DNA of 53,363 bases from a virus: IMG/VR virus record IMGVR_UViG_3300009420_000010, positions 1-53,363 of that record. The stretch is one strand, 5' to 3'. Shown piece after piece: positions 2 to 50,916 of the stretch. The notes under the pieces are model-generated. The model was not told where the DNA came from and ran no database searches. It saw only the letters and a list, made by a program, of their open reading frames with translations. A program made the position numbers and the translations under genes. The first letter of the stretch is position 1. Each line of letters begins with the position of its first letter.

Positions 2-3000
2 AAGATTAATTGTACCATTTGTGAATGTACCTTGTGTAACTCCATTATCTACAATTGTTAATCCATTTGAATCTACTCGTGTAAATGTGTTTTGTGTATC
101 ACCTCTAAATAATGAACCTGTACCACTAAATACTGCTTTTTCTGAACCAGAACCATATAAACTCAACACTCCGTTGGTTAATACACTACCCGTTACACTT
201 CCACTAACTTGTGTTATTCCTTTACCACCAACCTCTACATAAGTGTTAGAATTTAAACCATCAAATATTTTTGATGTTGCTCCATAAATTGCTAATGTTT
301 TACTTGCATCAGCATTCTTTAAACTCATACCAGCAGAATCCAACACAACTTGTGTTGCAAAACTTAAATCTTGTGAAGCAGATGCTGGTGGATATGAACC
401 ACTAATTGTATCACCATCGATACCAGCTAAATCTCCACTAATAATATTAATCGTACCCGCAACAGTCAAAGTACTTCCATCATACTTGACATGATTATCA
501 CTTGAGTTACCAAGTAATAACTTACCAGTACCATCTACATAAAAACCATCACCATTATTATATGCGGTTGGAAGTGTTGTACCCAATGCGATTATTGGTG
601 TACTTGCACTTGATTCCATTTTAATTTTATTTGTACCTGTGGTTAAGATACTTAAATCACTTGCTTTAATTCCAAGTTTACCATTATCAAATTTTATATA
701 TTCGTTTGCTCCTGCTTTAGCGATAAAATCTCCATCACCCTCTGCATAAAATCCTTTGTTACTTCCACCTGTATCTGTAACACTTCCAACTCCACCAATT
801 TTTAAACTACCATTAGTACTTGAACCCTCTATAACGATTTTACCATTTGCAAATGATGCGGATTTCTGTGTACTTGATAATTGTAAATCTCCACTATTTG
901 CATCCAATGAGAATACAGTCGATTGAATATCTACATTATCTGATTTAATTTGTAATGAACCACCATCAACAATCATAAAGTTATTCGCATCTCCGAATAC
1001 TCTGAAGTGTCCGCCACCATCCATAAATACACCTTGACCACTTGTATCACTATCACTCGTGATTGTACCTAATGAGATTTTGTTAGTTGCGGCTGTACCA
1101 CTTCTACCAGATATTGTTAATCCTTCAGTTACTATTTCTAATGAATCTGTTTTTAAATCAAATCCACTTGAAGCATCATATGTAAAATATTCATCTGAAT
1201 CTTTATAAATTCTAAATTCGTGATTTCCATCATCACTACCAATTAAAATACCAGCAGTAGTTTCACTACCAAACGCGATGTTACCAATTGATAAGTAACT
1301 ATCCGTTGAAGTACTTGATAATTTCATTCTTGGTGCTGCTTTACTTCCAAACCCAATAGTAGATGTTGCACCACCTTTAATATTTATACCACCAGCTATA
1401 TTATCATCATACCCAACACTCATTGATGCTTGACCTGATGAGATTTCTACATTTGCTGCTTCTAACTCAAATGTATTAACATCGATAGTTACACCATCAC
1501 CACTTAAATTAGCTTGTGATGCGGTTATATGTAGATTACTTCCATCAAACTTTAATGCACTTGTACCATCACCGACATGAAATTTAGCAGTACCTGCTTC
1601 ATTTGACATATAGAATCCAGCATTTAAATCATTGATTCCTTTCTTACCACTTTTCAATATACCAGCATTTGAACTACCAGTCATTTGAATGTTTTGTATC
1701 GTGTGTTGTCCAACTTTTAATTTTGTTAGATTGTTAGTTTGGTCACCGATAACTTCAAAAGAACCATCCCCAAGACTCATTGATTTATGTAGTGAAGAAA
1801 TTTGTAAATCACCCTCACCCGCGTCAAGTTCAAATTTAGAAGAAGTTATGTGTAATTGATTATCATCAAATTTAATTGCACTTGTACCATCACCGATATG
1901 AAACTCTGCATCAGTATTGTTATTTGCTAACCAGAATCCCTCAGTTAAATCTGCTGCAGATGCTTTACCACTTCTTATAACACCTTGTGAATTACTACCT
2001 GTTATCTGAATTGCTTTTGATGAATCACTACCAAATTGTCCAAACCCTACTCCACTACTTTTCTGTCCAAATATAACTGCTCCATCTGCCAAGGACATTG
2101 ATTTGTGTGTAGATGATATCTGTAAATCACCCTCATTAGCATCAAGTTCGTAAGATTGTATCTTTTGTGTTAAAGTACCCCCATCATACTTTAAGAAATT
2201 ACCAGCATCACCAATATGAAATTCGGTATCCGTATTGTTATTTGCTATCCAAAATCCAGCAGTTGTGGATGTTGCTGATGTTTTACCTGATGCGATGTAT
2301 CCTTGAGTATCACTACCCTTGATTGTAATCTGTTTACTTGTAGTTCCACCGACTGTAATTGAAGCATCACTTCCTTCTTTCTTTAGTAATAAATCACCAT
2401 CTGCAAATGACATAGATTTGTGTGTTGATGATAATTCAAAATCTGTACCTACATTTATATCAAGTGATTTTGGATTTAAGGATATATTTCCACTTGAATC
2501 GTTAGAAATATTATAAGTACTTCCACCAACTTTCCAAGCACCAGTCGTGTACCAATAGTTATTATCATTTATGTGTAAACCATCGTTAGTACCACTTATA
2601 TCAACACCTAAAATTAATCTTTCTGAATCACTTGTGTTTACAAATAACTGACCTGTAATCGAACCAGTAGTTGCAGTTATACCCCCACTAAAGAAACCAT
2701 TCTCGGTGAAGATACCAAATCCAGGTGAAGTGTTTCCAAACAATAATCCACTACTTATTCCACTTAAATCACCTAACCTAACTTTTAAATCTACATCATA
2801 TATTCCACTACCCGTTCTCTCAACAATATCCATATAAGGTGTGGTTTCATCATTTGGATTTGCGTTTAATCTGATATAACCTGTGTTAAGTTTACCAGTC
2901 GATACGATTACTTGTGAACCACTATACGATTGTGAAACCGCTGGGGATTCTCCTAAAGAACCACTATCTCCTGTAACGCCTTGACCAAATGAACGAGTAA

Positions 3001-6000
3001 CAAATAGGTTACCCGCAAAATTAACATCGCTTGATATATCATCTCGCGAAGCACTATATACCTTTACATACTCTGTTGCAAAACCTGTACTCGATACTTT
3101 CTTTAATGATAAAATTTCACCCGATGAGAAACCAGTTACATTTGCAACTGACATTGTTTCTTGTGCTGCTGTATGTATCGCATTTACAGCAAATGCACTT
3201 GATGTTAAGACTGTAGAGTTTGCTACATATAATTGTCCACCAACCGCGTTGACAGATTCTTTCTCAAATACTGCAGTTGCCAATGTTCCACGAATCTTAG
3301 CATTCTCTACTTCTAAGAATCCACCTTGTGCGGCAGTTAATCTAAATCCACTACCTGCAACATCACTTGCAAATCCTGCAGATTCAATCGTACCATCTTG
3401 TCGGATAATCATATTACCACCAGATAATCTATCATTCGTGATAGTCCAACCAGCTATTTCATTACCCTCTCCACCAAGTTTTACTAATGTATCGGTAGAA
3501 CCTGTTCCTGCTCCATCATAAACTTTTAATCCATATAAATCTGATGCACTATCTGATATCTCTCCTAATCGTAAAACCTCATCACCCTCACTATCAAAAA
3601 CTTGAACCCTACTTGTGGATGAATCGATATCTAATCGTGTAGTATCTAATTTAAAAGTATCAGTTTTAATATCAATACCATCATCAAATATAAAATAATT
3701 TGTAGAGTTTTTAACAAACTCTGCTTGTGGATTAGAAGCATCCATACCGATAATAATACCAGCAGTACCACTTCCCTCATTACCAAAACTTGATTTTCCA
3801 CCCATCGTAATAAATGCATCAGTTCCATCACCAACCATTCTGATAGGATTACTACTATCAGGGCTTAAACTCATAGAATTATGTGTATTAGATAATTGTA
3901 ATGAACCAGCATCCAATTCAAGTTTAGTAGTTTTTATATCTAAACCATCATCAAATATAAAGTAATCAGTAGCACTCTTAACAAATTCAGCTTGTGGATT
4001 ACTTCCATCCATTCCAATTAATATTCCAGCAGTTCCACTACCCTCTTCTGTAAAACTTGTCTTACTACCCATTACCATAAATGAATCAGTAGCATTAGTT
4101 TGTAAAGTAATCGAATTACTACCTGAATTAAGTATAATTGCTTTTTCTAATCCATCTAATATTACATTACCATCACCCAAACTCATTGATTTTTGTGCTG
4201 ATGATATTTGTAAATCTCCTGTACCCGCATCTAACTCAAAGTTAAGTGTTTTCATATCTATACCATTATCGTATATAAAATATTCGGTTGCACTTTTTAC
4301 AAATTCAGCTTGTGGATTACTTCCATCCATCCCAATAATGATACCTGCAGTTCCACTACCTTGAGTACTATCCATACCCGTTTTACTACCCATAGTAATA
4401 AAGTTATCTGATGCTCCACCCACGATACTAATCTGATTACCCGTACCGACTGTTATTTTTTTGTTTGGCCCATCAAGTACAATAGATTGGTCTCCCAATG
4501 ACATTGATTTATGAGCACTTGATATTTGTAAATCACCACTATTCGCATCCATTTCAAATGTTTCTGTTTTTATATCAACATCTTGGTCAACTTTAAAATG
4601 ACCCGTTGAACCAACAAACGAAACTCGTGGTCTTGATACTGAATTTATATACCCAAGAAATATTCCGGTTTGTCCGTAACCCTTTGTAGATTGTCCAATA
4701 CTTAAAAATGGACTTGAACTATTGGCGTGTACTAATAATTGGTCGTTTGTACCTAACGACATCGAAGCATTTGTGGATGATAATCTAAATCCAGTCGAAG
4801 TAATATTAATATCTGTTACATCAATATCTACATCAGAACCAGTAATTGAGAAATTACCATTATTAAATTTTATACCACCATCATCATCACCAAATCTAAA
4901 GTTACCATCACCATCCATATAAATACCACTACCAGTTGCAAGTGTAATGGTGTGTGCTTGTTTTCCAATTCTTAATGTTGGTACTCCTGCACCCTCTAAT
5001 ATAACTCTACCATAAGAACCACTTTGTGCATTATGTCCAAGACTCATACTTGCTTCGGTTGTGGATAATTGTAATGTGGATGCTGCAATCTCAAGTTTTT
5101 GAGAATTAATATCTAAGTTACCACCATTAAATCTAATAAAATCTGTAGAATCTCCAACTGCAAATTCTGGGTCTGTGTTATTGTTTGCTAACCAAAATCC
5201 TGCGGTTGTAGATGTAGCGGAATCTTTACCTGTTGCAATGTATCCTTGTGTAGATGAACCTACAATCTCAATTAATTTATTAGTAGTTTTACCAACTTTA
5301 ATTTTATTGTTAGCACCATCAAGTATAATATTACCCTCACCCAATGACATAGAAGCGTTCGTTGAACTAATCTCTATATTACTTGCATCCAATTCTAATG
5401 AACCAACTTGGACTGTAAAATCACCATTGGTAAATTGTATCTTATCTCCACTTGCACTACCGATTAGGAAGTTAGCATCTCCATCAAAGAATATACCATT
5501 TCCACTATCGTATCTTGTAGGTGGTGTTTGTCCAAGTGAAATCTTACCAGTACCTGCAGATGATGCAGAAAAGGTTGTGGTTTGTAAATCAAATGTATCG
5601 GATTTAATCGTAAATGAACCACCATCTACCCTAAAGAAGTTTGTAGCATTTCCTACAACATTAAGTGCTCCACCCCCATCCATATAAATACCAGCAGTAC
5701 CATTTGTTGGACTAGATGGGCCTCCACTTGCACCCAATCTAATTATTCCATTTCCACTATCACCAGCACTATCCATAATGAGTGTTGTAGCATCTAAATC
5801 AAAAGTATCTGCTTTTATTTGGAATGCTCCACCACTCTGTCTTATAAAGTTATTTCCATCTTTTTGGAAATTAAAATCTCCACTACCACTTAGGAAAATA
5901 CCTGCAGCACTTAATGATGGTGTTCCACTACCAAGTGCAATGTTACCACCACCCGCAGTATTAATATCAAGTGTTGATGTATCTATTGTTAAATTCTTTG

Positions 6001-9000
6001 AGGCAATTTTAAAATCTGTACCATCGAATACTATATGTCCTCGTGATGATGAGTAGAAACTAAATTGTCCACTACCACTTAAAAATATTCCAGCCTGTTC
6101 TACTTTTTGTGGTATTGTAGAACCCATAGCAATCACACCACCATTAGATGATGATATGTGTAGTGTTGAAGTCTTTAATCCAAATTCTTCTGATTTGATA
6201 TCAAATGCTGTTCCGTTAAAAGAAATGTAATTAGATGCATCTCCAACTACTTCAAATTTTGTAGTTCCACCATCTGTACCTAAAATTACTCCTGCGGTAG
6301 ATTGGTTGAAATGTGAGAAAGATGTTTTACTTCCAATAACCAAAAACCTATCAGTTCCATCATCTTTCAATGTTATTGCATTTGCAGAACCAACTTGTAT
6401 AAATGAAGTAGAACCACCAACTAAATCTATCTTACCCTCACCTAAACTCATAGATGAATGTGTAGAAGATATTTCTAAATTATTAGCATCTAATTCGAAT
6501 TTCTCAACATCTATATCTACATCACTACCAACAATCCTAGCAGCAGATGAAGTTATTTCTCCACTTGATTTCAATATTAATTTATCGTTAGAACTTGATA
6601 TTGCAGTTTCTGTTAAACCAAATGATGCAATCGTACCTGTACCATTGACAGTTAAATTTCCACCAATAGTAGTAGTTCCTGATATACTTGTGTTACCATC
6701 AAATAAAGCACTTGAACCAGTTATATCCCCATTTTCTTTTACATTGAAATTTGAAGATGAGATAAACATATATCGTGGATGGTCAACTCCACCAATTGCG
6801 GGTGAACCACTTATGAAAATATTGTTACTATGGAATGAATGACTATCTGTAGTGAACCCACCAATTAAACCTTCTGATGCAGTAATACTTCCCTCAAATG
6901 TTGCACCACTTGCGATTAAGATACCATCCTTATCCACCATAAAACTTGGGCCCATTTTAATATAATAGTTATTTGGAGATTCTTCGGTCGGTGTAAAATC
7001 TATATAATACTCATCTCTTAATGCATCAAATGCTGCTGATGAATCACTGCCAGGCCCTTGGTCTGTTTTAAATATTGTAGAATTATCAGCATTTAATGTA
7101 ATGTTACTACCACTTATCTGACCATCTACAATTGCCCAATCACCGATGAAACCAGCGTTTGCAGTAATATCACCACTCATTGTAACATTACCCTCTGGAG
7201 TGACATGGAAATTACTTGAACTTATTTCTATATTACCACCACTACCACTTACAAATGCACTCGAACCACCTAAGAAAAAATTAGGTGTTAAAATATCTAC
7301 ATTACTACCACTTAATGTTGTAGTACCTGATGAGAATATTTCGATGTTACCATTTGAACCACTTACAAAAGAACTACCAGCTTGTCCTAAGAAGAACTGG
7401 TCGGTAACAACTTCAAATGTGCTTGGGTTTGTTCTAAATTTTAAATATCTATCTTGTGAAGTATGAGCATCTACTATCTCTAACCCAACTCCATCATAAT
7501 CTTCACTTGCAGTTAATCTATCCCCGATAGAACCACTCCACAATAAAAATCCACCCTTACTTTCTGCAATTGTTCTGTCAAACCCATTATATCCAATAGA
7601 CCGTAAGAATGCAGAAGATACTCCTGCCATCTCAAAACCACTACCTTGTGTAGAACCAATGTATAATGAACCACTAAGTAAGTTATCCTCACCATCGATA
7701 TTTAATGGTGCACCTGTAAATTCTATGTTTTGACCTATCGTGAATGTTTCTGCAATATTATTATTTACATCATAAAACTCTACTAAGAAATCATATAAAT
7801 CTGGTTGTTTGGGTAATGGATATGCCATCGGAAGTACTACCCTAAAGTAATCTGGATTAAAGTTTGTTTCTGCGTGTGGTCGTACAACTACATCATTTAT
7901 AATTGCCCTACCAGCATTTAATTTAAATTTTAATTTAAGAGTTGGACCAATATCACTCGGCGTTATGAACGTAGTATAAATACCTGGTATTGAACCCTCA
8001 TTTAAGTTATTATTCCCTATATCTACTTTACCTACTGATTGATATGTATCGGATAAAGTACCACCTATTAATGCTGCTTCCGATACCAATACATCTAACT
8101 CAAAATCTTTTTCTACATCATCGTTATCTTGTACTTTATCTTCCTTGAAATAATGTGCATTAAAAGTAATTGAATAAGGTACACCCTTTTCTAATGCAAA
8201 ACTACCCGATGTTGTAAGTTCAACTGATGAACCTACTGCATAGTTTGAACCACTAATCTCAATACCATCTAAAATCTTACTATCATTTCTTGCAGCAGTA
8301 CCACCATTTAACAACCAATAATTATCAACAATACTTTGAGTATGAAAATAACCTATATTTAAAAATCCATCTACACTATATGGGTCTATTAAAGTTTGTG
8401 GGGATTCGATTGTACCCTCATGTAGTAATTCAAAATCTCCAAGTGAACCTTGACTCTTTCCATAAATTTTTGTCTTGTAAACATCCCCACTAAATGTTCG
8501 TAGGTTTGCGACTGTTACATCAGCAAAAGAACGATTATGTGTTGCACTAAGTGATTGTTCAGGAAAAGGTGTATAAGACATTGTAACTTCAGATTGTCCA
8601 TTCCCAGCAACCTCGTCTGCTATAATTGGAACTGGTATTTTTTCTAATGTATCTTTTCTTGTAATAAAGAAATCATCTACTGGTACAATCGTTTCTTCAT
8701 TTAAAACTTTTTTAATACTTGTATGGAATGAAGTAGGTACATCAAACTCTTCTGCTGGATATTTAACTAAATCAATTTTTGGTGATTTAATAGTTAGAGT
8801 TGCACCAATTAATGCACTCGATGCCTTATCCTTTGTGGTTTCATTTGATTCTTCAAGTTGGTGTACTCTCATTGAGAATCTATCTTGTTCAGGTGATGAC
8901 CTTCTTACTAATCTCCCCCTTGACCTAAACCCAGAATTTCTAAATGGATTTGATTTTGATTTTTTACTTGATTTAAATATTTCATTTATTTGTCCAATCT

Positions 9001-9760
9001 GACCCAATCCCTCTGCTGTTGGATTCTTTGGAAATCCTGGTGGTGGAGCAATTGGTGCTGGTAGTGGTGTTAAATCTGGAGCAGGATTTGCTTCAATACT
9101 ACCACTCAATACAACTGAACCACTTGGTGCTAATTGTTCTATAAAAGGTTTAACAACTTCTGTGACAGTTACTCTTGGTTGTTGATAAAAGAAAATTGGT
9201 TGTGAATTAGGTAATGCCGCATTAATAAAAATTGGTCTTACATATCGTACATTATAAACACCTTGAAATTCTGTTGGAACATCTTGAGCATTTTGTGCAG
9301 TAAGTTGGTCTATAAATTCTTCGGATAAATTAGCTGGATTAATGTTTCCAAAACTTTTAGGGTCGGTTATCTGAGAATCAGTTATTTCATCTTTGTTGTT
9401 TTCTAAACCTGATATCTGTTGATAGTTAGTTTTAAGTTCCCCAACAATATACATAAAACCATCACCAGGTATAACATCATCATATACCTCTATTGATACA
9501 CGGCGTGCACCACCCTCAAGATAATTTGTTATTGCTTCAGTATAGACAGTGTTCCCACCCGCATCTAATATTTCAACTTTAAGTTCTACATTGTCTGCTA
9601 AGAAAGGTGAACCTGCAACTAAGAATGATGATTTACCTTGTGGTATTTGGTTTGGAAAATCGTAAACTTGAAAGTATTGGGAAGTTAACCCAGTCTCTTC
9701 GACAAGTATATCTATATCCTTTAAACCTTGATATTTGTTGATTCTCTTTAAGATTGCCAT
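2..9760 (-). CDS. Giant repeat-rich tail fibre/adhesin, partial (3' end beyond window)
   Basis: One uninterrupted reading frame begins at ATG 9758-9760 (MAILKRINKYQGLKD) and runs through the left edge without a stop, giving at least 3,253 residues. The N-terminal part (about 1-220) probably anchors to the virion. A Pro-rich linker follows (about 223-250), then a basic Ser/Arg patch. From about residue 700 the chain is Ser/Gly/Thr/Asp-rich with short beta-strand units. Between nucleotides 840 and 6480 about a dozen copies of a unit of roughly 100-110 residues repeat; each carries a variant of FELDAGxGDLQISSxHKSMSLGDG, followed by Gly-rich turns such as AGFWLANNNTDxEF. This suits a long trimeric beta-structured fibre. 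No enzymatic motif was seen. A TATAAATA box lies 65 bp upstream on the same strand. Receptor binding is inferred from composition and size only. Confidence 0.85.
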   Translation of the reverse strand, partial: MAILKRINKYQGLKDIDILVEETGLTSQYFQVYDFPNQIPQGKSSFLVAGSPFLADNVELKVEILDAGGNTVYTEAITNYLEGGARRVSIEVYDDVIPGDGFMYIVGELKTNYQQISGLENNKDEITDSQITDPKSFGNINPANLSEEFIDQLTAQNAQDVPTEFQGVYNVRYVRPIFINAALPNSQPIFFYQQPRVTVTEVVKPFIEQLAPSGSVVLSGSIEANPAPDLTPLPAPIAPPPGFPKNPTAEGLGQIGQINEIFKSSKKSKSNPFRNSGFRSRGRLVRRSSPEQDRFSMRVHQLEESNETTKDKASSALIGATLTIKSPKIDLVKYPAEEFDVPTSFHTSIKKVLNEETIVPVDDFFITRKDTLEKIPVPIIADEVAGNGQSEVTMSYTPFPEQSLSATHNRSFADVTVANLRTFSGDVYKTKIYGKSQGSLGDFELLHEGTIESPQTLIDPYSVDGFLNIGYFHTQSIVDNYWLLNGGTAARNDSKILDGIEISGSNYAVGSSVELTTSGSFALEKGVPYSITFNAHYFKEDKVQDNDDVEKDFELDVLVSEAALIGGTLSDTYQSVGKVDIGNNNLNEGSIPGIYTTFITPSDIGPTLKLKFKLNAGRAIINDVVVRPHAETNFNPDYFRVVLPMAYPLPKQPDLYDFLVEFYDVNNNIAETFTIGQNIEFTGAPLNIDGEDNLLSGSLYIGSTQGSGFEMAGVSSAFLRSIGYNGFDRTIAESKGGFLLWSGSIGDRLTASEDYDGVGLEIVDAHTSQDRYLKFRTNPSTFEVVTDQFFLGQAGSSFVSGSNGNIEIFSSGTTTLSGSNVDILTPNFFLGGSSAFVSGSGGNIEISSSNFHVTPEGNVTMSGDITANAGFIGDWAIVDGQISGSNITLNADNSTIFKTDQGPGSDSSAAFDALRDEYYIDFTPTEESPNNYYIKMGPSFMVDKDGILIASGATFEGSITASEGLIGGFTTDSHSFHSNNIFISGSPAIGGVDHPRYMFISSSNFNVKENGDITGSSALFDGNTSISGTTTIGGNLTVNGTGTIASFGLTETAISSSNDKLILKSSGEITSSAARIVGSDVDIDVEKFELDANNLEISSTHSSMSLGEGKIDLVGGSTSFIQVGSANAITLKDDGTDRFLVIGSKTSFSHFNQSTAGVILGTDGGTTKFEVVGDASNYISFNGTAFDIKSEEFGLKTSTLHISSSNGGVIAMGSTIPQKVEQAGIFLSGSGQFSFYSSSRGHIVFDGTDFKIASKNLTIDTSTLDINTAGGGNIALGSGTPSLSAAGIFLSGSGDFNFQKDGNNFIRQSGGAFQIKADTFDLDATTLIMDSAGDSGNGIIRLGASGGPSSPTNGTAGIYMDGGGALNVVGNATNFFRVDGGSFTIKSDTFDLQTTTFSASSAGTGKISLGQTPPTRYDSGNGIFFDGDANFLIGSASGDKIQFTNGDFTVQVGSLELDASNIEISSTNASMSLGEGNIILDGANNKIKVGKTTNKLIEIVGSSTQGYIATGKDSATSTTAGFWLANNNTDPEFAVGDSTDFIRFNGGNLDINSQKLEIAASTLQLSTTEASMSLGHNAQSGSYGRVILEGAGVPTLRIGKQAHTITLATGSGIYMDGDGNFRFGDDDGGIKFNNGNFSITGSDVDIDVTDINITSTGFRLSSTNASMSLGTNDQLLVHANSSSPFLSIGQSTKGYGQTGIFLGYINSVSRPRVSFVGSTGHFKVDQDVDIKTETFEMDANSGDLQISSAHKSMSLGDQSIVLDGPNKKITVGTGNQISIVGGASDNFITMGSKTGMDSTQGSGTAGIIIGMDGSNPQAEFVKSATEYFIYDNGIDMKTLNFELDAGTGDLQISSAQKSMSLGDGNVILDGLEKAIILNSGSNSITLQTNATDSFMVMGSKTSFTEEGSGTAGILIGMDGSNPQAEFVKSATDYFIFDDGLDIKTTKLELDAGSLQLSNTHNSMSLSPDSSNPIRMVGDGTDAFITMGGKSSFGNEGSGTAGIIIGMDASNPQAEFVKNSTNYFIFDDGIDIKTDTFKLDTTRLDIDSSTSRVQVFDSEGDEVLRLGEISDSASDLYGLKVYDGAGTGSTDTLVKLGGEGNEIAGWTITNDRLSGGNMIIRQDGTIESAGFASDVAGSGFRLTAAQGGFLEVENAKIRGTLATAVFEKESVNAVGGQLYVANSTVLTSSAFAVNAIHTAAQETMSVANVTGFSSGEILSLKKVSSTGFATEYVKVYSASRDDISSDVNFAGNLFVTRSFGQGVTGDSGSLGESPAVSQSYSGSQVIVSTGKLNTGYIRLNANPNDETTPYMDIVERTGSGIYDVDLKVRLGDLSGISSGLLFGNTSPGFGIFTENGFFSGGITATTGSITGQLFVNTSDSERLILGVDISGTNDGLHINDNNYWYTTGAWKVGGSTYNISNDSSGNISLNPKSLDINVGTDFELSSTHKSMSFADGDLLLKKEGSDASITVGGTTSKQITIKGSDTQGYIASGKTSATSTTAGFWIANNNTDTEFHIGDAGNFLKYDGGTLTQKIQSYELDANEGDLQISSTHKSMSLADGAVIFGQKSSGVGFGQFGSDSSKAIQITGSNSQGVIRSGKASAADLTEGFWLANNNTDAEFHIGDGTSAIKFDDNQLHITSSKFELDAGEGDLQISSLHKSMSLGDGSFEVIGDQTNNLTKLKVGQHTIQNIQMTGSSNAGILKSGKKGINDLNAGFYMSNEAGTAKFHVGDGTSALKFDGSNLHITASQANLSGDGVTIDVNTFELEAANVEISSGQASMSVGYDDNIAGGINIKGGATSTIGFGSKAAPRMKLSSTSTDSYLSIGNIAFGSETTAGILIGSDDGNHEFRIYKDSDEYFTYDASSGFDLKTDSLEIVTEGLTISGRSGTAATNKISLGTITSDSDTSGQGVFMDGGGHFRVFGDANNFMIVDGGSLQIKSDNVDIQSTVFSLDANSGDLQLSSTQKSASFANGKIVIEGSSTNGSLKIGGVGSVTDTGGSNKGFYAEGDGDFIAKAGANEYIKFDNGKLGIKASDLSILTTGTNKIKMESSASTPIIALGTTLPTAYNNGDGFYVDGTGKLLLGNSSDNHVKYDGSTLTVAGTINIISGDLAGIDGDTISGSYPPASASQDLSFATQVVLDSAGMSLKNADASKTLAIYGATSKIFDGLNSNTYVEVGGKGITQVSGSVTGSVLTNGVLSLYGSGSEKAVFSGTGSLFRGDTQNTFTRVDSNGLTIVDNGVTQGTFTNGTINL
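840..6480 (-). repeat. Tandem ~310-330 bp coding repeats in the giant fibre gene
   Basis: The encoded motif S(M/A)S(L/V)(G/A)xG, preceded by (D/N)LQ(I/L)SS, recurs near nucleotides 860, 1415, 1780, 2100, 2410, 3870, 4185, 4500, 4760, 5045, 5350 and 6445. Spacing is mostly about 310-330 bp, with some gaps and double-spaced intervals. Copies differ at many third positions, so they are old, diverged duplications rather than recent ones. The array could expand or contract by recombination and so tune fibre length. Confidence 0.8.
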
Positions 9761-9863: not shown

Positions 9864-10037
9864 ATGAAAAAAAGATATAACTTCACATTAGATGAAGATG
9901 TTATGGAATGGCTAAAGTATTATTGTAAAGAGAATAGAACTAATTGTTCTTCTTTTATCAATCAAACATTGGGTAAGATGAAAGGTGGTTCTACACCTAA
10001 AGCTAAGATGCCATCAATCCCTACTAAATTTAACTGA
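9864..10037 (+). CDS. Small ribbon-helix-helix-like DNA-binding protein
   Basis: A 57-residue basic protein (MKKRYNFTLDEDVMEWLKYY...). The opening beta-strand KRYNFTLDED followed by two helices (about 10-22 and 26-38) with SSFINQTL is the pattern of Arc/CopG-type ribbon-helix-helix repressors. A GTG 12 bases upstream (9852) is an alternative start; I prefer the ATG because AGTGAG lies just upstream. It is one of only two plus-strand protein genes in the window and its 3' end overlaps the end of the SbcCD-like gene by 24 bp. It sits among divergent TATAAATA boxes, so a regulatory role at this junction is possible. The DNA target is unknown. Confidence 0.65.
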   Translation: MKKRYNFTLDEDVMEWLKYYCKENRTNCSSFINQTLGKMKGGSTPKAKMPSIPTKFN

Positions 10038-13000
10038 AGAACTACCATCAACTTTCTTAATCTCTAATAGAGTATCAACAAAATCTCTCATAGTTTCTAT
10101 GTGTGAAACTACCATTGTAAATTGAAATTGTGATTTCAAATATTGGAACAATTGTGAAACTGAGTTTAAATTTTCACTATCCATCGTTCCCCAACCTTCA
10201 TCAATAGCAAGGAAGTTACTTCGTGGTAAATTACTAACATTCATTAAACCAACTCTTATTGCAAGAGAACTAACGAATCGTTCCATACCACTTGATAATT
10301 CTAATGGCCAAACTCTATCATCATCATATACGATGTGAGTATCTATTTGTTTACCATCCATATTAAACACAATACTAAAATCAACTATCTGTGCAAGAAT
10401 ATCATTTACTGCACCCTCGACTGTGGGTAATGATTTACTAATCAAATCATAAGGAACACCATCTCGTTTAATTGCCTCAAGTAAGTATTGATATGCCTGA
10501 TGTGAATCTTCGAGTTCTTCTACTTTATTGATATTATCGTTGATTTGTGTTTCTTTAGTTTTCAATACTTGAATATCACCATGTAACGTAGTTAATTTTT
10601 TAGCAACCATATCTAACTGATAATCCAAATCATCATTGTTAGTCTGTAACTTATCAATTTCACTTTCTACTTGTGAATTAAATACAACATTCTGTTCTTG
10701 TGCTTTTGATTTTGTAATATCACTTGTGATTAAACTAAATTGGGCAATTATATTTTTTTGCTTTTCTTTTATAAGTGTTATATTAGATGTTATGTTATCG
10801 TGGTATCTACCCTTTTCATTTAATTGGTCAGATAATGTATCCAAATCTTTTTTAAATGCACGAACCTTGAATCTGGTCTGTATCTCATCTTCCATCAATT
10901 GTTTCTTTTGTAGATATTGTTGTGCAAGTAGTTTATCCTTATCAAGATTCTCTTTCGTTTGAATAGCATCTAATGTAAATGGATTACTCATACAATGTTT
11001 ACAATCTTCATCATGTGTTAAATTACCAAGCTTTTCAATCTTATCCAATTTAACCCTAACATCTGCTCTTAATTTATCTACTTCAATTTGAAACAAATCT
11101 ATTTCTTGTTCTAATTTTTCTAATTCAAAATACTTCTCATCTACACCATCAGTTTGATAGATTGCAATCTTATTCTCTATCTCTTGAGTTGCTTTTTCAA
11201 AGTCATATTGTTCAACCATATACTCATCTAATTTTAACTTGACATTATCCGATAATGTTGTTAACTTAGAGTGTTCCTTTTCTAAGGTATCTATAGGTCT
11301 TAATGTATCATCTACTGGTTTCAATCTTAATGTTTGATTCTTAATATTATCCAATACCGATTTTGCCTGTTTCTTCAATCCCGTCTCATCTGTCTTGAAA
11401 TCTGTTTCTTTTGCTTCAAGTAGAATCAACTCATCAGTTATATTAGCTAACTCACTATCATAGTCTGCTTTCTTAAAATCTTTCAAAAGTGTATTCACTT
11501 CTTTAATATCTTCAGATGCTTGTTGCCATAAAGTATCAAATATCTTCAATCCCATAAACTGGGATAATAACTCTTTACGTTCCTTTTGTGTTTTATCTAT
11601 AAAGACTGTAGAATTATTTTGTGAACTCATAGATGTAAGAATGAAATCCTCATAATTACCAATAACTCGTTTGATGTTATTTTGTGTAGTTCTTCGTTGG
11701 TCTCCATTTAATGATAACTTCTCACCAGTCTCATCTATCATCCAAAATTCTATATCAACTTTGACATGTCCAGTCCTTAGATTTATTTTACCTTTCTTCT
11801 CGATAAAATAATCCATACCATCTATTTCAAAGTTAACTTTACAATGTAATGTACTTTTTGCTTTATTGATAATATTATCAGCTTTAAATGTACGAGAACT
11901 CATATCAAATAGATTAAAACATAGAGCATCTAATAATGCAGATTTACCACTAGCGTTAGGAGCAAACAATCCAACTACACCATTTAGTTTTGTGAAATCT
12001 ACTACATTATCTTCTCCGTAACTAAACAAATTACTAAATTCAAATTTCTTTAATTTCCAACTTACATTTCGTTGGATATCTGCTTCGGGTACAACTGAAT
12101 TTAAATCGGTAAGTACTTTTTTTATCTTTATCATGGTGTCATCATCCACCATATAATTGCTATTTAAATACTCACTAATTAATTTATATTGATAACCTAC
12201 ATCTGCTACATCACCAATGTTTATTTTCTTATTTCGAATCTTATCCGTTGATAACCCATCTACTCGTGTTACAACTGATTCTTGAATCTTAGCCATTTTC
12301 CGAATCTTAGTCATTAACCTTTTTAATTGAGCAGGTTTTGTATTACTTACTCGTACCCGAACTCGTGGTTTATTTGGTAAATCACTTAAATCAGGTAACT
12401 TACCATTATCAATATCAATCGTATAATAACCATAATCATTATGTATCTCTATATACTCCGATTTGCGGGCAGGAACATCCCAAAGTAAATAACCCTTACC
12501 AATATCCTCTCCGTGATTTTGTTGTACTAACGAACCACAATAAGAAATAGTTTCTTCTTTATTTAAATGTTGTCTTTTGTGTATATCACCAAGTAATCCA
12601 AAATCATATCCTTTGAACATACTCATCTTTACTTTACTTGGTAACTTAAATCCCAAATCAGTTTCACTTCTATCGACTGTTCCATGAAACAATACAACTT
12701 TAGTATTATCTCCTGGAATATCTTTAGCTTTAATGTAATCGGATTCCTTATCCCAAACATCCCATACTACAAAATCAGTATCTGCAAATGTATATACACC
12801 TGTTCGTTTTAAATAATGTAAATTCGGATGATTTAAGTTTTCTACGATAGGTGTTAAACAATCCATTCTATTTAGATTATTTAGATTACAATCGTGATTT
12901 CCTGCAATAATAATTGTAGGACATATGTCTGCTAAATTTTTGAATAGTCGAGATAATTGGTCAATTAACTCTGGAGACATTTCGGTTTTACTATGTGCTA

Positions 13001-13175
13001 TATCACCACCAATATATGCAACTGCATTCTTTGGATTCTTTTTTACTTCCTCATACAGCCCATTAAATACTTGTTCGTATTCTTTATGCCTATTCAGATT
13101 TCTAATCTGTATGTCGGAAATATGGTGTATATATTTTAATTTTCTGAAAGGAACTTTAACTTTTTCCTGTATCAA
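10014..13175 (-). CDS. Fused SbcD/Mre11-SbcC/Rad50-like recombination nuclease (gp47-gp46 type)
   Basis: 1,053 residues. The first ~280 residues are a calcineurin-like phosphoesterase with the Mre11/gp47 motif series: HISDIQIR, GGDIAHS, IIAGNHDCN, LFHGTVD and LLGDIHKRQ. The rest is a Rad50/gp46-type SMC ATPase: Walker A GLFAPNASGKS (~402-412), long coiled coils, a zinc-hook CKHC (~725), ABC signature ELSSGMERF (~957) and Walker B FLAIDEGWG (~990). T4 and most bacteria encode these as two separate polypeptides, so the single-chain fusion is unusual. The expected role is end resection in recombination-dependent replication and host DNA breakdown. Start is TTG at 13175, preceded by AAAGGAG and overlapping the upstream stop (TTGA). 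Confidence 0.92.
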   Translation of the reverse strand: MIQEKVKVPFRKLKYIHHISDIQIRNLNRHKEYEQVFNGLYEEVKKNPKNAVAYIGGDIAHSKTEMSPELIDQLSRLFKNLADICPTIIIAGNHDCNLNNLNRMDCLTPIVENLNHPNLHYLKRTGVYTFADTDFVVWDVWDKESDYIKAKDIPGDNTKVVLFHGTVDRSETDLGFKLPSKVKMSMFKGYDFGLLGDIHKRQHLNKEETISYCGSLVQQNHGEDIGKGYLLWDVPARKSEYIEIHNDYGYYTIDIDNGKLPDLSDLPNKPRVRVRVSNTKPAQLKRLMTKIRKMAKIQESVVTRVDGLSTDKIRNKKINIGDVADVGYQYKLISEYLNSNYMVDDDTMIKIKKVLTDLNSVVPEADIQRNVSWKLKKFEFSNLFSYGEDNVVDFTKLNGVVGLFAPNASGKSALLDALCFNLFDMSSRTFKADNIINKAKSTLHCKVNFEIDGMDYFIEKKGKINLRTGHVKVDIEFWMIDETGEKLSLNGDQRRTTQNNIKRVIGNYEDFILTSMSSQNNSTVFIDKTQKERKELLSQFMGLKIFDTLWQQASEDIKEVNTLLKDFKKADYDSELANITDELILLEAKETDFKTDETGLKKQAKSVLDNIKNQTLRLKPVDDTLRPIDTLEKEHSKLTTLSDNVKLKLDEYMVEQYDFEKATQEIENKIAIYQTDGVDEKYFELEKLEQEIDLFQIEVDKLRADVRVKLDKIEKLGNLTHDEDCKHCMSNPFTLDAIQTKENLDKDKLLAQQYLQKKQLMEDEIQTRFKVRAFKKDLDTLSDQLNEKGRYHDNITSNITLIKEKQKNIIAQFSLITSDITKSKAQEQNVVFNSQVESEIDKLQTNNDDLDYQLDMVAKKLTTLHGDIQVLKTKETQINDNINKVEELEDSHQAYQYLLEAIKRDGVPYDLISKSLPTVEGAVNDILAQIVDFSIVFNMDGKQIDTHIVYDDDRVWPLELSSGMERFVSSLAIRVGLMNVSNLPRSNFLAIDEGWGTMDSENLNSVSQLFQYLKSQFQFTMVVSHIETMRDFVDTLLEIKKVDGSSSVKFSRD

Positions 13176-46880: not shown

Positions 46881-47477
46881 TTATTTATTGTTGTATGACA
46901 CAAAAGTATCATCTGGCACTCTTGATATTTGAGCAATATCGAACTTGTATGGTTTTGTACCTGGTGATTCCAAGATGTCTATACGATTTACAAATCTTGC
47001 GTTCATTGTATCTTTTACTTGGTACATACCATCTTTACCGTCAGTTCCCTTTAAGAGAATAAAGTCGCCGTAATCTAACCAACCACCCCAGCGTTTCAAA
47101 AGATTCCTACTAACCGCTATGTATCGGTACTCACTAGCTTTGTGTACCCGTATTCGCGTTCCATCCGCGAGAATGTTCGGTGTGGAGTCTGTTTGATACG
47201 AAACTGGATGATACATCGTTACTACCACATCCATCCCCTCAAGGTTATGTTCCGAAACTAAATTGTTTAGTTTCTGATTATCCTCTTTCAAGTTCACCAA
47301 AGTTTCTTGATGAAAACTCTTGTAATTATCAAAAATCGTTGTCCATACGAAACCATTAAATATCACTAAGGCTATAAAAGCCAAACTTGAATATGTTCTT
47401 ATATTTTTCATTACTGATTCATATGAATCGTCATTTCCACTCGTATATAAATATCTAGCTAACTTGTTAAAATTCAT
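46881..47477 (-). CDS. Membrane-anchored 3D-domain protein, possible lysis or wall enzyme
   Basis: 198 residues. N-terminal membrane helix (about 30-50, SLAFIALVIFNGFVWTTIF), a short coiled stretch, then a 3D/double-psi barrel domain: VVTMYHPVSYQTDSTPNILADGTRI, YIAVSRNLL, WLDYGDFILLKG, and TMNARFVNRIDIL with the Asp. This domain occurs in lytic transglycosylases of the MltA/SleB-associated type. It is anchored with the domain outside the cytoplasm and could degrade peptidoglycan. Holin-like genes are elsewhere in the window. Confidence 0.72.
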   Translation of the reverse strand: MNFNKLARYLYTSGNDDSYESVMKNIRTYSSLAFIALVIFNGFVWTTIFDNYKSFHQETLVNLKEDNQKLNNLVSEHNLEGMDVVVTMYHPVSYQTDSTPNILADGTRIRVHKASEYRYIAVSRNLLKRWGGWLDYGDFILLKGTDGKDGMYQVKDTMNARFVNRIDILESPGTKPYKFDIAQISRVPDDTFVSYNNK

Positions 47478-47791
47478 TTTATTTGTATCCCTTTAATATA
47501 TTCAGATTGATTTTCATCTATGTAATGTTGTATCACAAAGGCTTCTACTATATGAGTAAAGAACCAAAAGAATGCCAACATTGGCACAAATATCTGAACG
47601 TCTAAGTTTAATTTACTTACCCCTACCCAAGTTAGAAGCATCATTCCGATTGTTTTAGTTAAGAAACTTATGCCAGAAAATCCTAATGACATTACACTAC
47701 CTCTTTGTACCACCACATATATCCCAACCAATAAGTGCATTAGATTGAGAACTACAGGAGCAAGAATACCTAACAAAATATATTCTACCAT
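47474..47791 (-). CDS. Membrane protein with several helices, 105 aa
   Basis: From ATG 47789-47791 (MVEYILLGILAPVVLNLMHLL...). Three hydrophobic segments (ILAPVVLNLMHLLVGIYVVV, FLTKTIGMMLLTWVGV, FVPMLAFFWFFTHIVEAFVI). The open frame runs further upstream but that part is inside the tmRNA, so the later ATG is right. Stop overlaps the next start by 4 bp. Function unknown. Confidence 0.7.
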   Translation of the reverse strand: MVEYILLGILAPVVLNLMHLLVGIYVVVQRGSVMSLGFSGISFLTKTIGMMLLTWVGVSKLNLDVQIFVPMLAFFWFFTHIVEAFVIQHYIDENQSEYIKGIQIK

Positions 47792-47825
47792 TTTAAATAT
47801 AACCTTTTCATTTTTTATTGTTTTG

Positions 47826-48166
47826 TGGAGCTGGCGGGAGTCGAACCCGCGTCCAGTCTGCTTTTTCCAAAGGGTCATTCACAACTTAGTGAGATTCCAA
47901 ATAAGTAGTTATCTCCAACCCACTTCACCATTTTACACAGAATGGCTTAACTGAAAGATTAAGTTTAACTCCAACCTATAAAAAGAGTGGTCTACCGATG
48001 TCGACATCTTATCTTACTATCGGTGTCATAAGTAAGATGTTACGCGTAAGCGTAAGTTAAATTAGCTTGTGTGCCAATTAATCAAAGTGAACCTTTTGTA
48101 GCGAGTCTTGTTCAAACTCCGTTGCACCCAAGTGTCAAATAACACCTGTCGATACCAAGCAGCCCC
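47826..48166 (-). ncRNA. ssrA: Transfer-messenger RNA (tmRNA)
   Basis: A 341-nt one-piece tmRNA. The 5' end GGGGCUG pairs with 3' CAGCUCC, followed by discriminator A (47826). The T-arm reads GCGGGTTCGACTCCCGC, and the 5' part has GGTATCGACAGG, the usual tmRNA D-like segment. CCA is not encoded. tmRNA with SmpB frees ribosomes stalled on broken messages and tags the products for degradation. No smpB is visible in this window, so it would rely on host SmpB. It lies between small phage genes on the same strand. Confidence 0.95.
48040..48066 (-). other. tmRNA tag reading frame, deduced tag ANLTYAYA
   Basis: Within the tmRNA, the frame GCT...TAA encodes ANLTYAYA and then stops. With the tRNA-borne Ala it would give AANLTYAYA. 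It begins with Ala-Asn as in common tags and ends in Tyr-Ala rather than the common Ala-Ala. The resume codon is inferred from position and the Ala-Asn opening; a second frame (AHKLI then stop) is possible but less tag-like. Confidence 0.65.
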
Positions 48167-48173
48167 ATACTAC

Positions 48174-48329
48174 TTAATCATTTTCCACATCATCATCGTC
48201 ATCACCCCAAAAACCTTCGCCTTCGATTTCAACTTCATATGATAATGTTTCTAATAAATCTTCTACTATACCCCAATCCTCTTCATTGTAGGCTTTTTCT
48301 AATTTTTTCTTTATTTCCGCAAGTGACAT
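48174..48329 (-). CDS. Small acidic protein, 51 aa
   Basis: Reads MSLAEIKKKLEKAYNEEDWG and ends in a run of Asp and Glu (GDDDDDVEND). ATG is at 48327-48329, preceded by AAAGGAGTAACGA. It stops 8 bp before the tmRNA 5' end, so the two share a transcript or the tmRNA promoter lies inside it. The acidic tail could mimic DNA. Not recognised. Confidence 0.7.
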   Translation of the reverse strand: MSLAEIKKKLEKAYNEEDWGIVEDLLETLSYEVEIEGEGFWGDDDDDVEND

Positions 48330-50325: not shown

Positions 50326-50916
50326 TTATTTTCCTATACAACATTTTTTGAACTTCTTACCACTACCACAAGGACAAGGTTCATTCCTGCCCACGGCCTT
50401 TTTACTTATAATAGGTTGTGGTTTATCTTCCCTATCAAATATTGTTAACCCATTTAAATGGTCAATCTCATGTTGAACACATATGGTTTCTAACAATCTT
50501 AATTCGTCATTTTCGGCATCATGTTTTTCCCAACTACCTTTACCATCACTTCCACTTAATGCTCCACTAAACACCCAACCACTCTCTTCCTGTGCGGTTT
50601 GTATATGTATGGTTTCATATCGTTTGGTATGACAACCTTTCTTTGGGAAAGATAGACATCCCTCATAATAAGGTATCTCATTTTCTTTTGAAAGTATTTT
50701 TGGGTTAATTAAGATAATCGGTTCGCGAACATTAAGTACAGCAACAGCAGCATCAATACCAACTTGATTAGCAGCCAACCCGATGCCATCCCCTCGTTCA
50801 TTAAGTATCTTAAATAGTTCTGCGGCAATTTCAAGTCCTTCTTCAACTGAAACCTCTCTTAACTTTTTGTGGATAACTGGGTTATCGTGTTTAAAACAAT
50901 CAACTACCTTATTCAT
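50326..50916 (-). CDS. def: Peptide deformylase fused to a C-terminal SEC-C zinc motif
   Basis: 196 residues. The three deformylase motifs are intact: [10 protein letters not shown] (~43-50), EGCLSFP (~84) with the metal Cys, and [10 protein letters not shown] (~147-153) with the two His and Glu. The enzyme removes formyl from nascent N-terminal Met. Residues ~178-193 are a SEC-C motif, [16 protein letters not shown], the zinc module at SecA C-termini that binds ribosomes or SecB; I do not know it as a usual deformylase tail. Phage deformylases are known, mainly from cyanophages. A 28-residue membrane protein gene overlaps its start. Confidence 0.92.

Follow-up and report, generated by a model that had tools for sequence, protein, structure and literature searches.

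A lineage of phages with a tmRNA whose peptide tag ends in Tyr-Ala instead of Ala-Ala

Do phages that carry a transfer-messenger RNA (tmRNA) keep ribosome rescue yet alter the destruction of what is rescued? The question arises from a 53 kb IMG/VR virus record with T4-like genes, including those for a baseplate wedge protein and an SbcC-like exonuclease; the whole of this analyzed stretch is hereafter called the window. ARAGORN finds one tmRNA in it, at 47825-48166 on the minus strand. The Rfam model RF00023 matches 47823-48166 of the same strand with 84.4 bits (E = 2.3e-31), far above chance and above the model cut-off of 47 bits. This match spans model positions 1-374, i.e. the entire molecule. 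The two methods together bear out the initial annotation of a complete tmRNA. The CCA end is absent from the genomic sequence. The gene is contained in a same-strand gene array and has the following parts and neighbors:

47825-48166, minus strand: one-piece tmRNA (ssrA) gene of 342 nt (ARAGORN, RF00023 and a 17-sequence alignment)
48160-48166, minus strand: 5' strand of the acceptor stem, GGGGCUG, with G3 opposite a U of the 3' strand (alanine identity)
47827-47833, minus strand: 3' strand of the acceptor stem, CAGCUCC (17-sequence alignment)
47834-47850, minus strand: T arm of the tRNA-like domain, GCGGG-TTCGACT-CCCGC, its stem showing compensatory changes across relatives
48076-48080, minus strand: UAAUU 5' of the resume codon, with the A at -4 invariant across the family (alignment A1)
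48073-48075, minus strand: resume codon GGC (Gly), directly after UAAUU
48040-48075, minus strand: tag frame GTQANLTYAYA with stop TAA (ARAGORN coding part 92-127; frame confirmed by comparison)
48174-48329, minus strand: small acidic ORF of 51 aa that ends just ahead of the tmRNA (read from the sequence)
47474-47792, minus strand: hydrophobic ORF downstream of the tmRNA, function not assigned, kept in the contigs of several relatives
46881-47477, minus strand: lineage-marker ORF near the tmRNA, function not assigned, used as the query for finding relatives

Elsewhere the window codes for a metallophosphatase and an SMC/SbcC-like ATPase in one ORF (10014-13175), resembling a fusion of SbcD and SbcC (gp47-gp46), and for a peptide deformylase carrying a C-terminal SEC-C motif (50326-50916). 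A repetitive frame of more than 3250 residues, open at the left end (2-9760), is probably a tail fibre.

Comparison with relatives supports the identity of the RNA. RNAalifold predicts 67 base pairs over 17 sequences, and in 37 of these pairs at least one sequence differs at both partners; the predicted structures are nested only, and the RF00023 model covers the region without pseudoknots. The G3-U70 alanine-identity pair is G-U in all 17 sequences. All features tested identify the molecule as a tmRNA, among them conserved helices with compensatory changes, the A at -4 and a tag frame that is open up to its stop.

The tag had been deduced initially as ANLTYAYA. Its ending stands, while its start has to be moved three codons upstream to give GTQANLTYAYA. 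The GGC frame specifies a peptide of 9-11 residues ending in [YFV]AYA in 17/17 aligned genes. The other tag reading frames were rejected, as they have no common end among these 17 related genes; hence the resume codon does not lie in another frame, a possibility raised at the outset.

Relatives were gathered through a protein encoded near the tmRNA and through three kinds of DNA pattern. The first pattern fixed the YAYA end, the second nothing but the stretch ahead of the resume codon, and the third just the two termini of the molecule plus TTGG where translation resumes, so that the last two are unbiased as to the tag end. Membership of the lineage was defined by shared proteins in the tmRNA neighborhood. 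The IMG/VR scans place about 25 further contigs in the same lineage, with 12 distinct tags in all: GTQANLTYAYA, GNTANYAYA, GTQFNYAYA, GTEFNYAYA, GNTANFAYA, GNYANVAYA, GNMSNFAYA, GTYSNVAYA, GNQVNFAYA, DNQVNFAYA, GNTYNFAYA and GNYNTYNVAYA. All of these end in [YFV]-A-Y-A and vary in their N-terminal half; the resume codon is Gly in 11 of the 12 tag types and Asp in the other. The C-terminal Ala-Ala of a ClpXP-type degron is thus absent from the lineage, with 12/12 tags ending in Tyr-Ala. The alanine codons of the tag vary synonymously (GCT, GCC, GCG), the penultimate tyrosine is always TAC, and TAA, TAG and TGA all occur as stops of the frame. In the tag-unbiased scans, which covered contigs with an ARAGORN tag or a resume-like context, the AYA end was seen only in contigs with proteins common to the window phage. 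The only exception near the lineage is a sister phage (L080:1501-1907, IMGVR_UViG_3300020470_001980), whose tmRNA has a 34-residue tag, GEALLAGLIIDWHLAEYDSVEPVVDYQPSYAYAA, ending in SYAYAA. The non-canonical end of the lineage is correct and not the result of decay. Neither Microcystis phage Mel-JY01 nor Flavobacterium phage immuto, both among the nearest known phages, carries a full tmRNA. As to tRNA genes, a longer, near-identical contig codes for a tRNA-Ala(TGC) (L295:6547-6620), and in another contig the tmRNA is flanked by tRNA-Thr and tRNA-Tyr(GTA) (L121:7223-7730).

The conserved end could have its origin in the RNA, in the host or in the peptide. At the RNA level, GCUUACG of the tag is predicted to pair with a downstream CGUAAGC in a hairpin (columns 117-137 of alignment A1), so that the nucleotide conservation of the AYA codons is partly structural. 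Were this the whole explanation, AYA would be a by-product of the pairing and the peptide end functionless. One compensatory change in L152, along with wobble changes, is in keeping with such a hairpin. Nevertheless, the stop and the last alanine codon fall mostly within its loop, and yet the frame always stops there, using three different stops. Moreover, the residue before AYA is limited to Y, F and V, and the genes of the window and of the L306 type appear to differ in hairpin register while both keep AYA. We hence regard a purely structural origin as unlikely. An untranslated RNA that serves as a decoy by tying up SmpB, AlaRS or EF-Tu is more improbable still. It has a precedent in phage DS6A, whose tmRNA gene is reduced to little beyond the tRNA-like domain, a similar molecule being known to inhibit tmRNA (PMC4131195), and a huge phage related to the lineage's scans (L070) has what looks like a tag-less gene of the same sort. 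However, conservation of the tag frame, resume triplet and stop over the 12 tags would be of no use to a decoy.

A weightier alternative, to which we give a serious but less than even chance, is that AYA is a normal degron in the real host, i.e. that A-aromatic-A ends are in use in the host, through its tmRNA or a ClpX variant, and are mirrored by the phage. Ends of this form are known in Mollicutes (PMC9382460) and are seen in unrelated phages (see below). Against this, a pattern scan of one genome each of 84,980 prokaryote species (GTDB-wide) found no TAATYGG...YAYA tmRNA across these roughly 85,000 bacterial and archaeal species: none of its 15 matches had a tRNA-like 3' end downstream, the pattern covering YAYA alone among the [YFV]AYA ends and TAATYGG alone among resume contexts. 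Among 90 sampled Bacteroidia genomes, 81 have a strong tmRNA match, and 80 loci that were read gave 71 ARAGORN tags, nine loci without such a tag being left out. All 71 readable tags end in AA (65 read directly; six misplaced reads, in L233, L239, L254, L267, L274 and L284, re-read by eye). The Tyr-Ala end of the phage tag, to which the initial annotation had drawn attention, is thus a real departure from these tags. One of them, GNNYSYAYAA, demonstrates that a YAYAA end occurs in a cell and offers the mirrored-host reading some support. A pattern search of 395 Bacteroidota genomes was also empty; it carries little weight since its fixed T-arm distance misses the longer Bacteroidota tmRNAs.

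The force of the Bacteroidia comparison depends on the host. Two features hint at a host in the Bacteroidia, namely resumption at a Gly codon and the relatedness to Flavobacterium phages; Shine-Dalgarno usage weakens this candidate. Such sites precede 47% of the window genes, against 14% expected by chance, and 37-89% of the genes in relatives versus 3% in Flavobacterium phage immuto. Bacteroidia seldom use Shine-Dalgarno sites. Hence, the host is probably to be sought outside the typical or sampled Bacteroidia, which favors a mirrored tag in that host.

The remaining reading, for which we see an about even chance, is that of a functional phage tmRNA with a selected and altered degron, one that ClpXP would recognize less well or that a different protease would read. 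Under such a scheme, the host AlaRS would charge the phage tmRNA with alanine, and the charged RNA, working with the host SmpB, would enter ribosomes that have stalled on broken mRNAs in the infected cell. A host SmpB is presumed because no SmpB gene was found by PF01668 in the 14 phage fragments, i.e. the window and 13 related contigs, all of them genome fragments; this extends the earlier remark that no smpB lies near the tmRNA. The nascent chain would then gain Ala-GTQANLTYAYA, whose terminal Ala-Tyr-Ala, maintained by selection, would stand in place of the Ala-Ala usual in a ClpX degron. The tagged proteins would then most probably be handled unlike those tagged by the host, through slower degradation by ClpXP or through another protease. 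The conserved end suggests that the virus may alter the fate of the proteins it tags. The YAYAA end of the sister phage L080 speaks against this reading.

Studies on E. coli indicate what the substitution might do. ClpX contacts the terminal Ala-Ala and the carboxylate; substitutions of the penultimate or last alanine raise the Km with little effect on the Vmax (PMC7652416). Given this rise in Km, the AYA end is expected to be a poorer signal for ClpX, provided that the host enzyme behaves like that of E. coli. A complete escape from ClpXP is not implied, since ssrA variants without the terminal Ala-Ala (LVA, AAV) remain ClpXP substrates in E. coli (PMC9382460). A precedent for another protease is provided by the Mollicutes, where tags ending in NYAFA are reported to be degraded mainly by Lon (PMC9382460). 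The initial idea that the phage tmRNA might free ribosomes without marking the products for destruction is supported in part: the non-AA end is borne out, but A-aromatic-A ends act as true degrons in Mollicutes.

Other viral tmRNAs recovered in the unbiased scans mostly end in AA, e.g. GETRFALAA, GEVSTLALAA and GEFEYALAA; long tags ending in AVAA or LMAA were also seen, and one viral tag ends in AVA. A separate search for tmRNAs ending in A[YF]A, with any resume codon, returned the same lineage and three other tag types: ATAQYAFA (four contigs), ANMQYAFA and ATLNNAPRAYAFA. These YAFA-ended tags are on contigs L310, L311, L312, L313, L314 and L315, from phages unrelated to the lineage, and share the ending described for Mollicute tags. 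A-aromatic-A ends therefore recur in unrelated phages. The ATAQYAFA and ANMQYAFA contigs carry phage-typical genes, namely those for tail fibres, ribonucleotide reductase and HNH endonucleases; the ATLNNAPRAYAFA contig is typed weakly as phage by a phage-type phosphoesterase. We tentatively raise the more doubtful possibility that several unrelated phage lineages independently swapped the Ala-Ala degron for A-aromatic-A (AYA/AFA), uncoupling rescue from ClpXP destruction or redirecting the tagged proteins to another protease.

In its architecture the phage RNA resembles the one-piece tmRNA of Bacteroidota (Gly resume codon, e.g. GENNYALAA), with which it shares the G3-U70 acceptor stem, the T arm, a tag of 9-11 aa and the UAAUUGGC resume context. 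It is distinguished from these by being phage-carried, by a length of about 330-355 nt as against about 350-400 nt, and by a tag ending in AYA rather than ALAA or AMAA. Phage-borne tmRNAs are also present in the mycobacteriophage Bxz1 group, Streptomyces phage Tomas and Bacillus phage G, and are thought to depend on the host SmpB. The tag of Tomas is annotated as DNSNVAFALAA, with an ordinary LAA end, whereas the end in the lineage described here is a conserved non-AA one. A further parallel is with the NYAFA tags of Mollicutes such as Mesoplasma florum: 7 of the 12 phage tags have the same Asn-aromatic-Ala-aromatic-Ala pattern, the resemblance being one of similarity only, as the lineage ends in [YFV]AYA and not in exact N-Y-A-F-A. 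The Mollicute tags are, however, cellular, long and found in bacteria without ClpXP, whereas those of the lineage belong to marine phages and end in AYA. The laboratory ssrA variants AAV and LVA likewise alter the terminal Ala-Ala but are engineered, while the variant in the lineage is natural and conserved. What is new is that a phage lineage has conserved a tag end other than AA, with parallels in other phages. Our search, with the subscription literature mostly outside it, found no published account of such an end in a phage tmRNA. The combination of a drifting N-terminal half with a fixed protease-facing end makes the purpose of a phage tmRNA directly testable, and the lineage would supply natural degron variants for protein-degradation tools.

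The scans also brought up viral tmRNAs with unusually long tags. In L163, L182, L192, L199 and L202, the tags are of about 30 residues or more, exceeding most bacterial tags, and in L071 (IMGVR_UViG_3300033145_000529) an apparent 39-residue tag ends in ALATV. The 484 kb genome of an uncultured phage (LR756508.1; L068/L070) codes for a tmRNA with a long tag ending in KPAAV and has, elsewhere, a 112-nt gene resembling the tRNA-like domain without a tag region.
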